Origin: a virus
Strand: one strand, 5' to 3'
IMG/VR virus record: IMGVR_UViG_3300025128_008224
Span: 1 to 60,277 of that record
Length of the DNA: 60,277 nucleotides
Shown: positions 51,076-59,683 of the stretch, piece after piece
Layout of the letters: each line of letters starts with the position of its first letter
How positions within the stretch are numbered: the stretch's first letter is position 1
The notes under the pieces: model-generated
Seen by the model: only the letters and a program-made list of their open reading frames with translations
Databases searched by the model: none
Told to the model about the DNA's origin: nothing
Made by a program: the position numbers and the translations under genes

Positions 51076-51104
51076 ACTATACATTCATTTTAGCGGATAG
51101 TCAA
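51076..51104 (-). promoter_or_regulatory. Sigma70-type promoter overlapping the end of the tubulin gene
   Basis: Minus-strand TTGACT (51104-51099), 17 bases, TATAGT (51081-51076). It overlaps the tubulin stop codon at 51090-51092. It should start transcription near 51069 and serve the two small proteins and tRNA-Arg. Confidence 0.7.
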
Positions 51105-52244
51105 GAACTTTTTCAACTCTTCTAGTCTTTTCTGAGGAGGTTCGAGACCTCCGACAACTGTGTAAGCTACGAGTTTGTCTTTACCTGAGTCTTCGTAAAT
51201 TCCTCTATGGATGATTGCACCACCTGTCAAGGCAGCGAGGGTATCAAATCCATACTCAATGGAGTCCATGAGGCCGGGGATCTCTTCGTACTGCTTTGTT
51301 CCGCCGACAACGATGCTGGCAGCACCAGTAGCTGTAGTTAGATCAAAGCCACTAGCCAAAAGAGTCTTTCCTAGGTTTCTCTTGAGCGCAGATGAAATTG
51401 AAGTTTCGTCTTCGATGTTCTTTACAGATGTAGCTCCGAAGATCATACACCCCTTTGATTTCATTATAGTATTATAATCGGCTGGATCGAAGGCAGTGTA
51501 GTTTGAGTTCTTTGTCGATAAAAGATTGAAGACGTGAAAGAGGCCGGCGACTGTGCTGTTCAGAGTGGGCCAAAACTGCTTGACAGTAAGCTGTGGATAT
51601 AGCTTTCTGATTTTGTCGTTATCGACGATGATGAGGGGGGCATAATCCCCATTCTCAGCAGCTACACATAATTCTGTGATTCTATTATAGGCATTTTTGG
51701 CGACAACCGGAGATGCGACTTCGCCAGTTGTGGGAAGTGAAGCAACAACGCCCACTCGCTCGCTAGCGTCATCTTTACCAACATAAGTGAAATAGCGCTT
51801 TGCTGTGTCAATTAACGTCTGTACAGAGCCGCCTCCGGTTCCGCCGGCTACTCCAACACAAACAAGGATTCTATCAATGTTCTCTCCAAAGATTTGACGC
51901 ATCTTGTTGAATATTTCAGGATTCTGTGCTTCATATGCTTGTCTAGCTCTCTCTTGATTTTTGCCTGCTCCATCCTCGCCAAAGTGATTTACGAAGAACT
52001 TATGTTCTTCTGGCAATTCAAGTAGAGCCAAATCGGACTTTGCTGTGTTAAATGCAATTGTTTTCTTATATCCCAAGTCGTAGAAGGCCTTTGCAATTCT
52101 ACCTCCGCCCTGGCCTGAACCGATAATGGCATAAGTAAGTGCTCCACCGCTTTCATCCTCAACGGAATCCTTCTTTTCGTTATCAATGGCATCCGGATCG
52201 AAATCCTCAATATCCAAAGTTGGTATGTTTAGGTCAATTGACAT
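51090..52244 (-). CDS. FtsZ/tubulin-superfamily GTPase
   Basis: A 384-residue protein with a complete FtsZ/tubulin GTPase core. The N-terminal nucleotide loop IIGSGQGGGRI is at 40-50, the tubulin signature AGGTGGGS at 133-140, and the T7 catalytic loop FDPADYNTIM at 252-261 keeps both acidic residues, so it should hydrolyse GTP on polymerising. A 35-residue acidic N-terminal tail precedes the core. AGGAG precedes ATG. Phage tubulins such as PhuZ form spindles or segregate DNA, but their T7 and C-terminal features differ; this one looks closer to FtsZ. Filament function is inferred. Confidence 0.92.
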   Translation of the reverse strand: MSIDLNIPTLDIEDFDPDAIDNEKKDSVEDESGGALTYAIIGSGQGGGRIAKAFYDLGYKKTIAFNTAKSDLALLELPEEHKFFVNHFGEDGAGKNQERARQAYEAQNPEIFNKMRQIFGENIDRILVCVGVAGGTGGGSVQTLIDTAKRYFTYVGKDDASERVGVVASLPTTGEVASPVVAKNAYNRITELCVAAENGDYAPLIIVDNDKIRKLYPQLTVKQFWPTLNSTVAGLFHVFNLLSTKNSNYTAFDPADYNTIMKSKGCMIFGATSVKNIEDETSISSALKRNLGKTLLASGFDLTTATGAASIVVGGTKQYEEIPGLMDSIEYGFDTLAALTGGAIIHRGIYEDSGKDKLVAYTVVGGLEPPQKRLEELKKFLTIR

Positions 52245-53107: not shown

Positions 53108-53743
53108 CTAGTAAATGATTTCATCAACGAGACCATATTTAAGGCAAGTTTCTGCATCCCACCATAGGTCGTGTTTTAGAATCTCATTGAGTTTTTTAGC
53201 CGGGATTTTTGTACGCTCTTCGTAGATTTCTCTAATGCGCTTCATTAGAATCTCGCTATTCTTCATATCATCTTTTAACTCTTCGTATTTCCCCCACATA
53301 CCAGAAGAAAGCTGGTGGATTAACATATAAGCGTTTTTATTGATTTTTCTGTGGGCGCCCACGACGCTCATGATTGTCGCAGCAGAAGCAGCACAGCCAT
53401 CGATGATCGTGGTGATTGGAACCTTTGACTGAAGAATATAATCAACAGAAGAAAACCCTGCGAAAACGCTCCCCCCATATGAATTGATATGAAGGTTGAT
53501 CGGAATGCAGGGTTCAATGTTTAACGAATTTGAAATATTTGAATATTTGTTGGCAGCTTCTATAATCTTCTTGTTCAGAGTAAGATTGTTGGTCCTCTTG
53601 ACTTCTGCATAAAAGTAGATATCGTTGTTATAAACTTCTATTCTATCCTTTGAGTCGCTCCCTGCGTTGGCTTCATAATCATCATCGTCTTTCTTTTTAT
53701 CTTTTTTCTTGGCTTTCGAATACCAGATATCTATATCACTCAT
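53108..53743 (-). CDS. clpP: ClpP-like serine protease
   Basis: A 211-residue S14-family protease with the triad Ser120 (CAASAATIM), His143 (MLIHQL) and Asp192 (HDLWWDAE), and the NSYGGSVFAGF oxyanion region at 88-97. The N-terminal 30 residues are a Lys/Asp-rich extension. In phages ClpP-like proteins serve as host-type proteases or capsid-maturation proteases. It overlaps the nucleotidyltransferase gene by 8 bases. No Clp ATPase is visible in the window. Confidence 0.92.
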   Translation of the reverse strand: MSDIDIWYSKAKKKDKKKDDDDYEANAGSDSKDRIEVYNNDIYFYAEVKRTNNLTLNKKIIEAANKYSNISNSLNIEPCIPINLHINSYGGSVFAGFSSVDYILQSKVPITTIIDGCAASAATIMSVVGAHRKINKNAYMLIHQLSSGMWGKYEELKDDMKNSEILMKRIREIYEERTKIPAKKLNEILKHDLWWDAETCLKYGLVDEIIY

Positions 53744-54592: not shown

Positions 54593-55948
54593 TTAGTTTA
54601 TAAACTGAGCCCATCTCCTGTATGTTTCATTCAGGGCGGGTTCGGTGGGTATTGGAAGCTTTTCAAGCTCTCTTGCCTTTTGTAATTCTTGGTATGCTTT
54701 CTGATGTTCTCGTCCAAACTTATAATCTGTACCATGACTTGGAAGCATTGCAGCCGCTCCGCCCTGGTCGGCAAACTGCACGTCAAGATCGCCATAGAAC
54801 TTATCAAAGTCAAAATCAGGTAGCTCTTCTATGTCATGTACAAACCTTCCGGATCTGGTTTTGATCGGTGCAGGTGTCGGGAGAGGCTCCTCTGGTCTCT
54901 CAAAGCGTGGGGAGGCGATCTCTGGTTCGCTCGGCCTTCGCGTTGCTATCTCAGGCCTGTTGCTGGGCTCAGGCGGAGCTTGTGGTGGCGCCGGCTTTGG
55001 CAACTCTATTTCCGGCTTTGGTGCGGTAGCCACAGGAGAGGGTGTGTCCGTAGTAGGCGGAGTGGGCGCAGGGGGTTTATCTGGTACTTTTGTTTGCAAA
55101 GGTGTTTGAAATTGTTCCGGCTTAATATTGTCCTTGATGGCGCCCAGGGTCAAATCTTGTATTTTTGATCTCATTTTGCCGAGATCTCTGTCGGACTGGT
55201 CGGTATACAGTGACAAAACATATTTGTCGTTGATTACAACAGAATAGTTCAAAGTGCCTTTGTAATAGCCACCCTTACCATACATTGATTTAATAGAATC
55301 TTTACCATATCCTGCTTTTTCCAACTGCTTATTCAAGCGATCTTTCAACCCTTTAGCGCCGGTTCCACCTTGCCTCTTCTGGATATAAGACAAGACTTCA
55401 CTGGCCTCGTTGTGATATTCTGAATCTGGATCATTCTTCATGTTGACAAGAAGCGACATGAACTTGTTATAACCTTGTGGAGTTTGCTGATTGTATCTAC
55501 TTCCCCAGTGCACCCCTCCGATGGAATCTCCTAAGCCAAGCTTATTTAACACTTCTTTTGCCTGGTCTCTGCTAACTCCATATTGCTTGCTGTATTTTTT
55601 GTAATATCCTTGATTTTTGGGGTCTTTTCCTGGAACACTGGACATATCGCTCAAGGCTCTATTAACCCTGTTCGAACTTGAGGAGCCTCCGGCATAGCTT
55701 ATAAGCTTATCCAACTCTTCCGGGGACAGTCGACGAATCTTTTCACCTGTTCTATTGTGAAGGGCGCCTTCTTTTGCTAGTACAAGATTGATGAAAGCCA
55801 GAACCGGCTTGTTCATCGATGCGCCGTACATGGATTTGTTCTGGTCGATGCCAGCGATTGGATCTTTACCAATCTCTCCAATAGAATAGCCATGCTTAAG
55901 CTTGGCTTCGTTTAAAAACTCTTCCCAATTTTCTAATAACAGTTTCAT
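54593..55948 (-). CDS. Tagged internal-type protein with serine beta-lactamase/DD-peptidase-like domain
   Basis: The frame extends to 55966, but I choose ATG 55948, which overlaps the upstream stop (ATGA) and starts the shared leader MKLLLENWEEFLNE. Length 451. After the leader lie three motifs in the order seen in serine penicillin-recognising enzymes: SxxK at Ser44-Lys47 (ASMNK), SxN at 91-93 (in GGSSSSNR) and KxG at 225-227 (YGKGG), the last followed by a NYSVVINDKYVLSLY strand pair. Residues about 290-380 are a Pro-rich linker. The C-terminus has the second shared motif, ALNE then TYRRWAQFIN. The leader and C-terminal motif each end or begin at Leu-x-Glu, a T4-type prohead cleavage consensus. 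Hydrolase activity is inferred from three short motifs. Confidence 0.82.
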   Translation of the reverse strand: MKLLLENWEEFLNEAKLKHGYSIGEIGKDPIAGIDQNKSMYGASMNKPVLAFINLVLAKEGALHNRTGEKIRRLSPEELDKLISYAGGSSSSNRVNRALSDMSSVPGKDPKNQGYYKKYSKQYGVSRDQAKEVLNKLGLGDSIGGVHWGSRYNQQTPQGYNKFMSLLVNMKNDPDSEYHNEASEVLSYIQKRQGGTGAKGLKDRLNKQLEKAGYGKDSIKSMYGKGGYYKGTLNYSVVINDKYVLSLYTDQSDRDLGKMRSKIQDLTLGAIKDNIKPEQFQTPLQTKVPDKPPAPTPPTTDTPSPVATAPKPEIELPKPAPPQAPPEPSNRPEIATRRPSEPEIASPRFERPEEPLPTPAPIKTRSGRFVHDIEELPDFDFDKFYGDLDVQFADQGGAAAMLPSHGTDYKFGREHQKAYQELQKARELEKLPIPTEPALNETYRRWAQFIN

Positions 55949-57621
55949 TTTATAAGTTGAGCCCATCTTTTATACGATTCTTGTAAAGCCAATTCGCCTT
56001 GTTTTTCGATTTCTTCTGGATCTTGCCAATATTTAGCCTCGTGACCTTCCTGTGCTACCAAACCAACATCTATTAGAGCCTTTGATATTGCAGAATATCC
56101 TTTGGTACCGAAACTTTCATCAATACGAAGCATTTCATTGAGAAATACTCTAAGCTCATCTAGATCTTCAATATGGCTATAATCAACAACACCCTTGAAA
56201 TAGGGGCCTCCGCCGCGAACATCGTCAGGAACAGACTCTAGATCATATATATTCATTCCGGTGGGGGCGATTGCGTCTCGAATGATGGCGTTGATTTGTT
56301 TGAGTGTTTCCGGTTCTTCCCATGGCACAGTCCATTCCATGGTTTTTCTATGTCTTGCAAGGATTATGGGCAAATTAATCCAAATATAAGAGTTGAGTTC
56401 GATGTGACTTTCACCAGTTTCGTCGGGAAACTTCAATTCGAATTCCAAGTGTTCTACCTGATCTTGATAGCGCTCCATCATTTCTATGTAAGGTTCTTTG
56501 CCAATTGAAGGGTTTTCTTGTGCATCTTCTTGCGCTACGTCGATTATATACCTTAATGTACTCATGGCCCTTGTTTCGATGGCCTCTACACTTTCTTCAC
56601 GCTGTTGGTCAATTGTATCGTAATCTTCTGGTTCTGAGTTTATTTCAATGTCGGTATTATAATCAGCACCCAACTCTTTTACGGCTGCAGCGAATTCCAT
56701 TACGTCTTCTTTTGAAACGTCTTCACGACTTACCATATGGCCGCCCGTAATATGCTGATACCAAAGGAGGGCACCTTGAGTTACTTTTTGATTGAGAAGG
56801 TTCTGTACTATTGCTTGAGTTGTTTCATCAAAATCCATCGGCTCATCCCAAGCATTCCATGCGCGATTGAATGCTCCACCTGGCTCCATTTCAAGGGCAA
56901 TCTTCTTATATTTGTTATCATTGGAAAGGTTGGCTAGAAACACAAAATAGAACGTTTTGCCTTCTGCAGAGTACTCATCAAAATAGTTTGAAGATTCAGA
57001 TGCTGAGATACACCATTTTGTTCCTTTGCCATAATAACAAGAAGCTTCAGTGGTCTCTGGTCTGATCATAATATAGTCATCGTTTTCGTCGACTATTCTG
57101 GAACCTTCTTTTGCTTTTATTTTCTCTTGTTGTTTTCTGTCCTTCGCTGACTCAACAGATGCCTGCTTTGTAACTGCTGCGTTGACAGTTGAATTTAGTT
57201 CACCAAAATCTTTAATTCTATTAATGTCTCGTTGTTCTGGTTCAACATACTTCTGGAGAAGATGAAATGTTTCCAACTGTCCTGCAATATTGCTGGCGAT
57301 GCCCCAAGGAGATATGAGCTTGTCTATTTTTTCTGGCTCAATCTCTTCATCTTCTGGCCACTGCTTTCCCCAAAAAGGTTCTTTGCCTCTTTTAATGTGA
57401 CCATCAATAGTATTTTTCAAAATCCTAGCTGCGCCCATGAGATATTTTTGGTTTTCAGAAGGATCTCTTTGAACAAGAACATCAAGAAGACTTTCGCCAT
57501 CCAATTCTTCTCTTTTCTTAGCTAATTCAGGGAACTTTCTTTCAGCGTCTTGAATGCGGCCTTCAATGAGAAGTTGAGATTCTGTTAAGTATTTCCGCCA
57601 ATTTTCAAGTATGAGTTTCAT
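55945..57621 (-). CDS. Tagged internal-type protein with GTKWCIS module
   Basis: A 558-residue protein starting with the leader MKLILENWRKYLTE and ending ALQE-SYKRWAQLIK. The middle has SCYYGKGTKWCISASES and YFDEYSAEGKTFYFVFL, a module I have seen in phage proteins but cannot name, then a KKIALEME strand. The rest is helical and charged, with no membrane span or signal. The leader and C-terminal motif match those of the following gene, with which it overlaps by ATGA. Probably co-packaged or co-localised with it. Confidence 0.82.
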   Translation of the reverse strand: MKLILENWRKYLTESQLLIEGRIQDAERKFPELAKKREELDGESLLDVLVQRDPSENQKYLMGAARILKNTIDGHIKRGKEPFWGKQWPEDEEIEPEKIDKLISPWGIASNIAGQLETFHLLQKYVEPEQRDINRIKDFGELNSTVNAAVTKQASVESAKDRKQQEKIKAKEGSRIVDENDDYIMIRPETTEASCYYGKGTKWCISASESSNYFDEYSAEGKTFYFVFLANLSNDNKYKKIALEMEPGGAFNRAWNAWDEPMDFDETTQAIVQNLLNQKVTQGALLWYQHITGGHMVSREDVSKEDVMEFAAAVKELGADYNTDIEINSEPEDYDTIDQQREESVEAIETRAMSTLRYIIDVAQEDAQENPSIGKEPYIEMMERYQDQVEHLEFELKFPDETGESHIELNSYIWINLPIILARHRKTMEWTVPWEEPETLKQINAIIRDAIAPTGMNIYDLESVPDDVRGGGPYFKGVVDYSHIEDLDELRVFLNEMLRIDESFGTKGYSAISKALIDVGLVAQEGHEAKYWQDPEEIEKQGELALQESYKRWAQLIK

Positions 57622-57642
57622 TCTGTTCCTCTGCTATGGATT

Positions 57643-58860
57643 CTAGGATTCAAGTGACCAATCTCCCTGAGAGTTTGTGATCATCCAGAACCCAGACCCG
57701 GACCCAACGATGGTGATAAAGTGTCCAATGTCCGAACTTGTTCCAAGAATTAAGTCTTTGTCTACTCTCCCCACACCATTGCTCCCCAGAACTACCGTGC
57801 TTCCATCTTTGTCAAGCAGATTGCCCATGAACTTTTCGCCGGATGCTGGGTTAATTTGGAACCCCTGACCGGGTGTCCCTGCATACCAGAACGTATACGT
57901 TATGCCTGGTGCAGTGGAGGGCAGATTCACAACATGGTTAGATGGAGTAGCATTACCGGACTGGGGGATTAATATACCTGACTGTGATGTTGTAAGGGTT
58001 GCCCCGTTTGAAAGCGCGCTCCCGACGTACTGCTTGTGCCCGAGCATTCCGGTTGCCATGAGGCCTCCAGATGGGGTGATGGTCAGATAACCATTGTCAT
58101 CAACAGCAAAGGTCGCGGCGTCGGATCCGTTGTAGGACAATTTTAATTGGGTTCCGGCATTAAATACCTCCAATTGCGTATCCGGATCGCCAACGCCGAT
58201 TCCAACGTTGCCGTCCTGCTCTATGACCATCCTTATATCACTATTGGTTTTGAATGTGAGGTTGTCGTTAGTATAATTATTGTATGCAATCCACTTTCTT
58301 GTGCCGTTCTCGTAAAGTTCAAGACCGGGGTGGCTGTCCACGTCGCCGTCAATTTTAATTCTGGGGTCATTTCCAACAAGCTTGATATCGCCATCAACAT
58401 GTAGCTCTACATCGGGAGATCCTACGCCGTTGATCCCCACCCTGCCTGTGGATGCGTCTACCTTAAATGCGGGGTTGCCTTCGTTGGAACCGTTACCCTT
58501 AACAATAAAGTCAATATTGTTCGAACCATCGTTAAAAGTAAGCTCATGTGGAGCGGAGTTTTTTTTGTCTAAGTTAATGAATGATAGGTTGCCTGCCTTT
58601 AAAGTTACCGCATTGTCTCCGAACCTCATCCACGTATCGGCATCACCGTTGTGATAGATGTATTGATCGACCCCTATGTCTCCGGCTACGTCGAGAGTAT
58701 AATCTGGGCTCGTGGTGCCAATGCCCACCTTGTTTTGGTCTGCATCAACAAACAAGGTGTTGCTATCTAGATTGACGTCATCATCGCCGCTGCCTAAATC
58801 AATACTCCCGTCCACGTTTAGCGAACCCGTGATGCTAGCATTGCTTCCATATTCAGACAT
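57643..58860 (-). CDS. Tail-fibre-like protein with VGIG repeats
   Basis: A 405-residue protein. Repeats of a beta motif are spread along it: NKVGIGTTSPDYTLDVAGDI, GRVGINGVGSPDVELHVDGD and GNVGIGVGDPDTQLEVF, as in trimeric fibre shafts. The C-terminal part has GSGFWMITNSQGDW. The start is ATG 58860 (MSEYGSN), with GGAG 10 bases upstream; the frame's earlier ATG at 58869 is too close to that site. Its start overlaps the end of the 25-residue leader peptide gene. Confidence 0.82.
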   Translation of the reverse strand: MSEYGSNASITGSLNVDGSIDLGSGDDDVNLDSNTLFVDADQNKVGIGTTSPDYTLDVAGDIGVDQYIYHNGDADTWMRFGDNAVTLKAGNLSFINLDKKNSAPHELTFNDGSNNIDFIVKGNGSNEGNPAFKVDASTGRVGINGVGSPDVELHVDGDIKLVGNDPRIKIDGDVDSHPGLELYENGTRKWIAYNNYTNDNLTFKTNSDIRMVIEQDGNVGIGVGDPDTQLEVFNAGTQLKLSYNGSDAATFAVDDNGYLTITPSGGLMATGMLGHKQYVGSALSNGATLTTSQSGILIPQSGNATPSNHVVNLPSTAPGITYTFWYAGTPGQGFQINPASGEKFMGNLLDKDGSTVVLGSNGVGRVDKDLILGTSSDIGHFITIVGSGSGFWMITNSQGDWSLES

Positions 58861-58930
58861 TATTACCATTCTCCGCGGGGAAAGAATATTCTTTCATATA
58901 CTCTCGCCAATTTTCAAGTAGGAGTTTCAT
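58853..58930 (-). CDS. 25-residue stand-alone leader peptide (MKLLLENWREYMKE...)
   Basis: A short frame whose start overlaps the previous gene's stop (ATGA) and whose stop lies inside the start of the fibre gene. The product is the same 14-residue leader as its neighbours plus YSFPAENGNNV. The first 13 codons are identical in sequence to those of the upstream gene. Either it is made as a free peptide, or a +1 shift near the stop would fuse it to the fibre protein. Translation is not shown. Confidence 0.6.
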   Translation of the reverse strand: MKLLLENWREYMKEYSFPAENGNNV

Positions 58931-58932
58931 AT
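58890..58932 (-). repeat. 43-bp perfect direct repeat, copy 1
   Basis: Identical to 59258-59300 over 43 bases. It covers the ATG, the whole shared leader and two bases upstream. Related, one-mismatch copies of its first 26 coding bases start the gene at 57621. Confidence 0.9.
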
Positions 58933-59298
58933 TAATTCTTGTGCCTTTTCTTCTGCATACTCAAATTCCTCATCGCTGTATGTGCCAAATACCTTTTCTA
59001 CTTCTTCTGGAGATGTTTCACGATAGGTGTTGCTTTCACCACTTATATTGTCAAGCACGTTTTCCAATGGCATCCTGCCGCGGCAGTCAATCGCTTCTTT
59101 TGTTTGAGAATCATAAGCAAAAACATGATGCATGTCTCCTCGTTCATCAACGATGCCATACATGGGAAAATCAGAAATTCCACTAATGGCTTGTGCTAGC
59201 AACGAGCAGTCGCGCCTCATAAAATTAATATATTCGGAGGGATGGTGTTCCTCTTCCTCTTTCATATACTCTCGCCAATTTTCAAGTAGGAGTTTCAT
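58927..59298 (-). CDS. Tagged small protein, unknown function
   Basis: A 123-residue protein starting at ATG 59298 with the leader MKLLLENWREYMKE. The frame stays open upstream to 59442, but that part reads through the tmRNA and is rejected. The body has a MRRDCSLLAQAISG helix, FPMYGIVDERGDMHHVFAY (beta), and an acidic helical end (SPEEVEKVFG, EEFEYAEEKAQELI). The MHHVFAYD strand after GDMH resembles the fold of small phage proteins that bind or process other proteins, but I cannot name it. It follows the tmRNA by 39 bases. Confidence 0.78.
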   Translation of the reverse strand: MKLLLENWREYMKEEEEHHPSEYINFMRRDCSLLAQAISGISDFPMYGIVDERGDMHHVFAYDSQTKEAIDCRGRMPLENVLDNISGESNTYRETSPEEVEKVFGTYSDEEFEYAEEKAQELI

Positions 59299-59337: not shown

Positions 59338-59683
59338 TGGTGGAGGCGTCGGGAGTCGAACCCGAGTCCTAAATGCTTCCAAAAATTCGTCATTCACAAG
59401 GTTAGGTTGTTGTATATTGAAATCTGGCCACAACCAGTCCAAATTCCTGGCTAGTACTTATAGCACTAGGCCCAGCCACCACTCACCTTATTAAGGTAGT
59501 GAGAAACCTAAAAATGCCATTTTGGTTAACAAGGGATGGCTCCCCCGGATTACGCAGCTAGTGCGTATTCAGAAAAAGTGTCAGTATTGGCACTTATCAA
59601 GTTCAGCGTTTTTACAGAGACCGTCGCTGCCCTCTGCCCTGCACGAATAATCTTCGACACCCAGTCGATACCAATTCGCCCCC
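59338..59683 (-). ncRNA. ssrA: tmRNA (SsrA)
   Basis: A 346-base one-piece tmRNA. The 5' end GGGGGCGAATTGGTATCGAC matches the tmRNA consensus and pairs with CGCCTCC at the 3' end; the T-arm is CTCGGG-TTCGACT-CCCGA and CCA is encoded. The tag frame resumes at GCC and reads ANTDTFSEYALAA followed by TAA, with the usual YALAA end. Tagging would send stalled products to ClpXP-type proteases. It is preceded by a structured leader and a strong promoter. Confidence 0.95.

Follow-up and report, generated by a model that had tools for sequence, protein, structure and literature searches.

Proteins with removable capsid-targeting peptides are known from phage T4, which has three such small internal proteins (IPI, IPII and IPIII) plus Alt. 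For IPIII, residues 4 and 7 act in targeting and residues 8 and 10 in processing (Black's work, reviewed in PMC9026906), and the prohead protease gp21 cuts after L/I-X-E (PMC9026906). Alt is processed at both ends (PMC9026906), and the protease of phage SPN3US prefers A-x-E (PMC10052503). Here we analyze a 60,277-bp IMG/VR fragment, IMGVR_UViG_3300025128_008224 (this whole stretch of DNA is referred to as the window), in which neighbouring genes open with the same 14-residue leader. We find this leader on at least 114 unrelated protein bodies in marine IMG/VR phages, and its sequence very probably marks it as a T4-type capsid-targeting propeptide, of a family that is new and in very wide use.

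Leader sequences in the window

A back-translated leader pattern matches the window at exactly four places, all on the minus strand, with starts at 55948, 57621, 58930 and 59298; the same pattern gave 0 matches in 100 dinucleotide shuffles of the window. The four frames open with MKL[L/I]LENW and translate as MKLLLENWEEFLNEA (451 amino acids, aa), MKLILENWRKYLTES (558 aa), MKLLLENWREYMKEE (123 aa) and MKLLLENWREYMKEY (25 aa). A first-pass annotation of this DNA had described four leader proteins with unrelated bodies. All four starts are real and lie where it had placed them, and the bodies do fall into separate clusters, but the fourth frame has only 25 codons, so that the array consists of three tagged proteins and one leader-only open reading frame (ORF). 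Leader-bearing homologs exist elsewhere for the 123-aa protein (in L105, 53% identity) and for the 451-aa protein (in L031, whose genome has both an S77 protease and gp23).

Conservation and the putative cleavage site

A degenerate pattern scan of IMG/VR recovered the leader in at least 120 stretches, and the leader-family counts given below hold among the matches listed. The scan pattern fixed residues 1-11, left residues 12-14 free and allowed all Leu codons. Clustering of the 262 leader proteins gave 114 body clusters, between which no similarity was detectable past residue 20, and conservation was measured over one representative of each. The consensus MKL[LI][LFM]ENWRK[YF]LxE is followed by a collapse, with 2.26 bits at E14, 0.64 at residue 15, 0.34 at residue 16 and about 0.1-0.6 bits in the stretch immediately past E14. 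Since only residues 1-11 were fixed in the scan, L12 and E14 are independent observations; the full conservation of W8 and Y/F11 is partly hit selection because the pattern fixed both. An [LIVM]xE motif ending at residues 14-16 is present in 99/114 leaders versus 4.7% of internal windows. Where the Glu stands at residue 15, residue 13 is hydrophobic (8/11 versus 4/91; Fisher p=3.3e-7, this and the other p-values being taken from one representative per body cluster, samples that shared ancestry leaves not fully independent). The shifted forms replace YLNE with YLLTE, YLIKE or YMLKE, and the putative cleavage motif thus moves as a unit.

Comparison with T4 points in the same direction. In the T4 record, Y4, F7, I8 and E10 of MKTYQEFIAE align with W8, Y/F11, L12 and E14 of the leader. 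When the leader profile was scored over 258 T4 ORFs, gp68, IPIII, IPII, gp23 and gp21 were all within the top 11 (hypergeometric p=1.1e-5 for a set of ten head proteins that belong to the core or are processed by gp21: gp21, 22, 23, 24, 67, 68, IPI-III and Alt), with the single top-scoring ORF not being a head protein.

One could instead take the leader for an amphipathic helix that targets its protein elsewhere, whether to the membrane of the host, to RNA polymerase, to a compartment for phage replication or to some part of the virion outside the head. The leader is indeed helical in the predicted model of the 558-aa protein, and the cassettes lie among tail and late genes, tens of kb from the head genes. 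A helix, however, requires no sudden loss of conservation at E14 and no Glu that shifts together with its P3 residue, and the best T4 matches include prohead-core proteins. We regard targeting elsewhere as very unlikely; the moving Glu/hydrophobic pair is accounted for by a predicted cleavage site and not by a plain amphipathic helix.

Distribution of the leader

The leader appears restricted to phages in the data searched. The first-pass annotation had proposed a search for other proteins with the same start, and at least 114 unrelated bodies in marine phages carry it; a motif mainly on bacterial proteins, which would have refuted its reading, is contradicted by 0 matches in 84,980 bacterial and archaeal species genomes (257 Gb). 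Two or more leader genes occur in 64/121 loci, with up to 7 in one locus, and neighbouring pairs are directly adjacent in 94/144 cases and on the same strand in 143/144. A relaxed pattern gave 58 matches in 19 contigs of >119 kb, and its reversed control gave 0. Recognizable cargo domains, seen in a minority of bodies, are protein kinase-like, Nudix, AAA/polynucleotide kinase, tRNA nucleotidyltransferase, exonuclease, M23 peptidase, acetyltransferase and methylase. We found no report of the leader in the literature, in a search outside of which most subscription papers lie.

Several related observations were made along the way. One leader protein (L018:7284-8474, plus strand) has a twin-arginine-like signal (RRSFLKKAATAAGAVAAS) after about the first 70 residues. 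In G010 (L152, L158-L159), 14 proteins have the first leader, and about ten small proteins unrelated to one another have a leader of a second class, MKLTKxKLKQIIKEEL. In actinophage DSL-LC01, a capsid maturation protease adjoins a relative (L353:973-1707, plus strand) of the common CPPATQDLELN cargo of the leader. In Flavobacterium phage immuto (L172-L178), unrelated proteins have the N-termini MENFDLKKFLVENKLTxNS and MKKSQLRQIIKEAL in common, and in Salicola phage SCTP-2 (L191-L210) they have MKIxxLLxEN and MxxIKxYxxLIENAEN; these shared N-termini, in culturable isolates, are possible targeting tags. The immuto homolog of a leader-bearing nucleotidase (L351:2504-3103, plus strand) begins instead with another extension, about equally long and containing LLLEE (MKKVMGNLADLLLEESD), i.e. 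the same cargo behind another tag.

The leader as DNA

Conservation of the leader extends to its codons. Leu3 is CTC in 46% of leaders versus 9% in the bodies, Leu4 is CTA in 53% versus 11%, and Leu5 is CTT in 95% versus 24%; codons 12-14 show little such bias. An exact 26-mer, ATGAAACTCCTACTTGAAAATTGGCG, is found in 65/249 leader genes belonging to 29 unrelated families. The start codon overlaps the stop of an upstream ORF as ATGA in 114/250 leader genes, and in 30 further cases the upstream ORF runs into the leader and terminates there at a TGA, so that its C-terminus reads, for instance, NETPT. Both alternative frames are largely closed within the leader, with stops in frame +1 in 250/252 and in frame +2 in 218/252. 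These patterns fit a leader that spreads as DNA and would act as a joint for new bodies, and the codon bias could also stem from common descent of the leader alone.

The same features (locked Leu codons, a 26-mer common to unrelated families, ATGA overlaps, internal TGA stops and closed frames) also speak for a reading of the leader as chiefly a DNA element, that is a recombination seam or translation-coupling sequence for cargo shuffling with no role in protein sorting. We consider this improbable: L/I-x-E, which shifts as one block, is preserved through synonymous changes in codons 12-14, residue 5 interchanges among Leu, Phe, Met and Ile, and T4 head-core proteins match at the protein level. 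The DNA role and the protein role can coexist. A wider picture, which we put forward tentatively and with more doubt than conviction, is that large marine T4-like phages might draw on a global pool of interchangeable injected proteins, with the leader serving as both packaging tag and codon-locked, frame-closing seam, and with a few cargoes tagged at two ends. A codon-locked seam that closes both other frames would, in this picture, let any new body be joined behind the leader and then be expressed, packaged and delivered.

C-terminal tails

The C-termini of the 451-aa protein (ALNETYRRWAQFIN) and the 558-aa protein (ALQESYKRWAQLIK) are identical at 9/14 positions. This bears out the shared C-terminal motif of the first-pass annotation, as the runner-up among 1128 pairs of C-termini in the window has 6 identities and none of 200,000 random pairs had more than 7. 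Because 4/9 of the shared residues are encoded by different codons, the match is more than shared DNA. In the 558-aa family, L-x-E stands just before a varied and usually basic plus aromatic tail in 7/7 members with a C-terminus (LQE-SYKRWAQLIK, LQE-NRKIIIKLKGVEI, LQE-RFKKFRIGIIK, LEE-RKTFKIKVLK, LAE-RWRRFIK, LCE-GWKRWAGK and LCE-SWKGWVKR), and the 451-aa neighbour ends LNE-TYRRWAQFIN. More distant relatives of the 558-aa family in the isolates Paride and SCTP-2 do not show the L-x-E tail. A leader-like copy also ends four other proteins (in L025, L030, L032 and L037). The last of these is a 1134-aa protein (L037:9854-13258, minus strand) with leader-like motifs at its start, at residue 551 and at its very C-terminus.

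Beyond these cases the tail does not generalize. The exact tag was found in no gene outside the window, and its only other exact DNA match (L334) lies outside any gene on that strand. LxE near the C-terminus is not enriched (14/93 leader families versus 97/778 others, p=0.5), which counts against tagging at both ends as a general feature, and the motif [WY][KR]x[FYW][LIVMA] at C-termini shows a weak enrichment of 0.7% versus 0.33%. With the L334 match not genic and LxE tails not enriched in leader families, the C-terminal tag was rejected as a general rule, and two-ended tagging is an exception.

The tails could instead be a family feature of the 558-aa protein that was copied to its neighbour by gene conversion, with no targeting function. 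Outside the 558-aa family they occur in the 451-aa protein alone, the two genes are adjacent and share an 11-nucleotide identical stretch (AGATGGGCTCA), and general enrichment of LxE tails is absent. Set against this, LxE precedes the tail in 7/7 family members though the tail itself varies, the four synonymous differences point to selection at the protein level, leader-like copies end four other proteins, and T4 Alt is a precedent for cutting at both ends (PMC9026906). This reading is a serious possibility, if a somewhat doubtful one. That the tails are second propeptides in these two proteins is plausible from their sequences, and on this we are evenly divided. Of the earlier proposal that both ends are targeting peptides, the N-terminal half is well supported by the end of conservation at E14, the moving LxE and the T4 profile match; the support for the C-terminal half is local.

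Head genes and genome context

Genes for an S77 (gp21-family) protease and a gp23 capsid protein are present in 18/19 near-complete leader contigs (>119 kb), and the exception lacks both. Seventeen gp23 precursors of leader phages carry an L-x-E site of their own, [LI]LENQAKELLRE (LLENQAKELLRE; in one ILENQAKELLRE), followed by A, S, N, Y or V. The gp23 precursors of L141, L143 and L148 have LL.KWE.TGLLEG and LLENQAKELLRE, which resemble the leader, and the leader may mimic the propeptide of the capsid protein.

The window is a fragment of a large myovirus. It has baseplate wedge genes at 8.6-10.9 kb and a nucleotide-sugar/glycosylation block at 25-44 kb, together with PhoH, a tubulin-like gene, an RNase H-like gene, a ClpP-like protease, a spanin and a transfer-messenger RNA (tmRNA). 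Its baseplate protein is closest to those of Microcystis phage Mel-JY01, a 484-kb phage and the Flavobacterium immuto phages, all of which have S77 and a gp23-type capsid. The gp21-like protease anticipated by the first-pass annotation is found in these relatives, and the window's own is unseen because the cassettes lie far from the head genes.

A number of observations weigh against a head-targeting role. S77 is also present in 2/3 random viral contigs of >119 kb, and in just 5/46 leader contigs of 33-108 kb, its rarity there being due to that same distance. Since large random contigs often have S77, co-occurrence with the protease is weak evidence, and after this control and the 5/46 result we rejected it as strong proof. 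The distance of the cassettes from the head genes counts on the same side, as does the lack of any S77 or gp23 gene in the annotated part of the window, which is a 60-kb fragment. The residue after Glu14 is often acidic (37/~90), unlike the A, S, N, Y or V that follows LLRE in the gp23 precursors of the same phages, and about 13% of leaders have no clear [LIVM]xE. No isolate with the leader was found by body searches of 50,697 phage records or by pattern in nearby records, and no virion proteomics was found for any phage bearing it.

The ClpP-like protease (53108-53743, minus strand) was considered as the head protease of the window, given its PHROG matches to head maturation proteases. ClpP-like proteins are also ordinary proteases, nothing ties this one to the leader site and the relatives have S77, and it was not assigned. 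In L003, a ClpP gene about 5 kb from the 558-aa homolog adjoins a GroEL-like gene.

Genes of the array

The coordinates of the array are collected in Table 1. The ATG of the 25-codon ORF overlaps the stop of the 123-aa gene (ATGA), and at the other end its stop codon overlaps the probable start of the fibre ORF (MSEYG). Over its first 41 nucleotides it is identical to the leader at 59298; we read it as a recent leader copy stranded ahead of a non-head gene.

Table 1. Leader genes, proposed propeptides and interposed ORF in the window.
Feature	Position	Strand	Database match
Leader protein 1, 123 aa, MKLLLENWREYMKE + small body	58927..59298	minus	
Leader segment of protein 1, residues 1-14, proposed cut after Met-Lys-Glu	59257..59298	minus	
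Leader-only ORF, 25 codons	58853..58930	minus	
Fibre-like ORF within the array, without its own leader	57643..58869	minus	tail fibre PHROG 9942
Leader protein 2, 558 aa, MKLILENWRKYLTE + GKGTKWC-family body + C-terminal tag	55945..57621	minus	
Leader segment of protein 2, residues 1-14, proposed cut after Leu-Thr-Glu	57580..57621	minus	
C-terminal tail SYKRWAQLIK of protein 2, after Leu-Gln-Glu	55948..55977	minus	
Leader protein 3, 451 aa, MKLLLENWEEFLNE + SxxK/SxN/KGG serine-hydrolase-like body + Pro-rich linker + C-terminal tag	54593..55948	minus	
Leader segment of protein 3, residues 1-14, proposed cut after Leu-Asn-Glu	55907..55948	minus	
C-terminal tail TYRRWAQFIN of protein 3, after Leu-Asn-Glu	54596..54625	minus	

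Between the 451-aa body and its L031 homolog, SMNK/SMPK, SSN/ASN and KGG are conserved, corresponding to the SxxK, SxN and K[TSG]G motifs of serine beta-lactamase and penicillin-binding-like hydrolases. As a serine hydrolase this body has no Pfam match, no PDB-sequence match and no confident model; its structure prediction, from a two-sequence alignment only, has a predicted local distance difference test (pLDDT) score of 35 and is unusable. The 558-aa protein is one of a family of phage proteins that share a GxGTxWC core, and its predicted structure (pLDDT 70) has no PDB match. An unrelated 607-aa lysin-looking protein (L002:8399-10222, plus strand) has at its end the DFDFDKFY stretch that the 451-aa protein carries close to its own C-terminus. 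Just upstream of the array lies the tmRNA (59338-59683, minus strand; tag ANTDTFSEYALAA), and the tubulin gene at 51090-52244 (minus strand) is TubZ/FtsZ-like (Pfam Tubulin, TubZ-like_C).

Proposed mechanism and significance

We infer core docking, cleavage, packaging and injection as the route of these proteins. During prohead assembly, the W8xxY/F11 face of the leader would dock the protein onto the scaffold core, and a gp21-type (S77) prohead protease would then cut after [L/I]-x-Glu14. The freed enzyme would stay in the head and be injected with the DNA. Unrelated cargo genes are arranged in head-to-tail overlapping cassettes, each opening with the leader, and in two cargoes of the window Leu-x-Glu with a short basic, aromatic tail would probably form a second removable propeptide, comparable to the C-terminus of T4 Alt.

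The distribution of the leader suggests that ocean phages may inject a large, swappable set of proteins with their DNA. If so, a 14-residue tag would make it possible to list, from sequence alone, which of the uncharacterized proteins of ocean phages travel inside the virion and reach the host as infection begins, with more than 100 unrelated bodies on one tag and kinase, Nudix, nucleotidyltransferase, exonuclease or AAA domains in many of them. The cassette seam would make the acquisition of injected proteins by phages testable, and the tag could serve to load proteins into other phages.

Comparison with known systems

The capsid localization signal of P1 DarB and the propeptides of SPN3US/phiKZ ejection proteins are, like the leader, N-terminal signals that place large proteins in heads, and SPN3US/phiKZ have a Glu-specific prohead protease, as proposed here; these signals are longer than the leader and different. 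For the 451- and 558-aa proteins, with their two-ended L/I-x-E and with bodies unrelated to Alt, the closest counterpart is T4 Alt, a packaged ADP-ribosyltransferase with propeptides at both ends. To our knowledge, no tail is common to unrelated Alt-like proteins. Much like IPI, IPII and IPIII of T4, in which MKTYQEFIAE is cut by gp21, the leader is a short N-terminal peptide common to unrelated proteins, with aromatics at the targeting positions and L/I-x-E at its end, on clustered, variable genes of phages whose relatives have a T4-type protease and capsid. Unlike the T4 peptides, it is four residues longer and has a distinct sequence (MKLLLENWRKYLNE), it stands on at least 114 body types compared with three in T4, many of its cargoes are recognizable enzymes, and it is conserved also as DNA, in arrays of overlapping cassettes.

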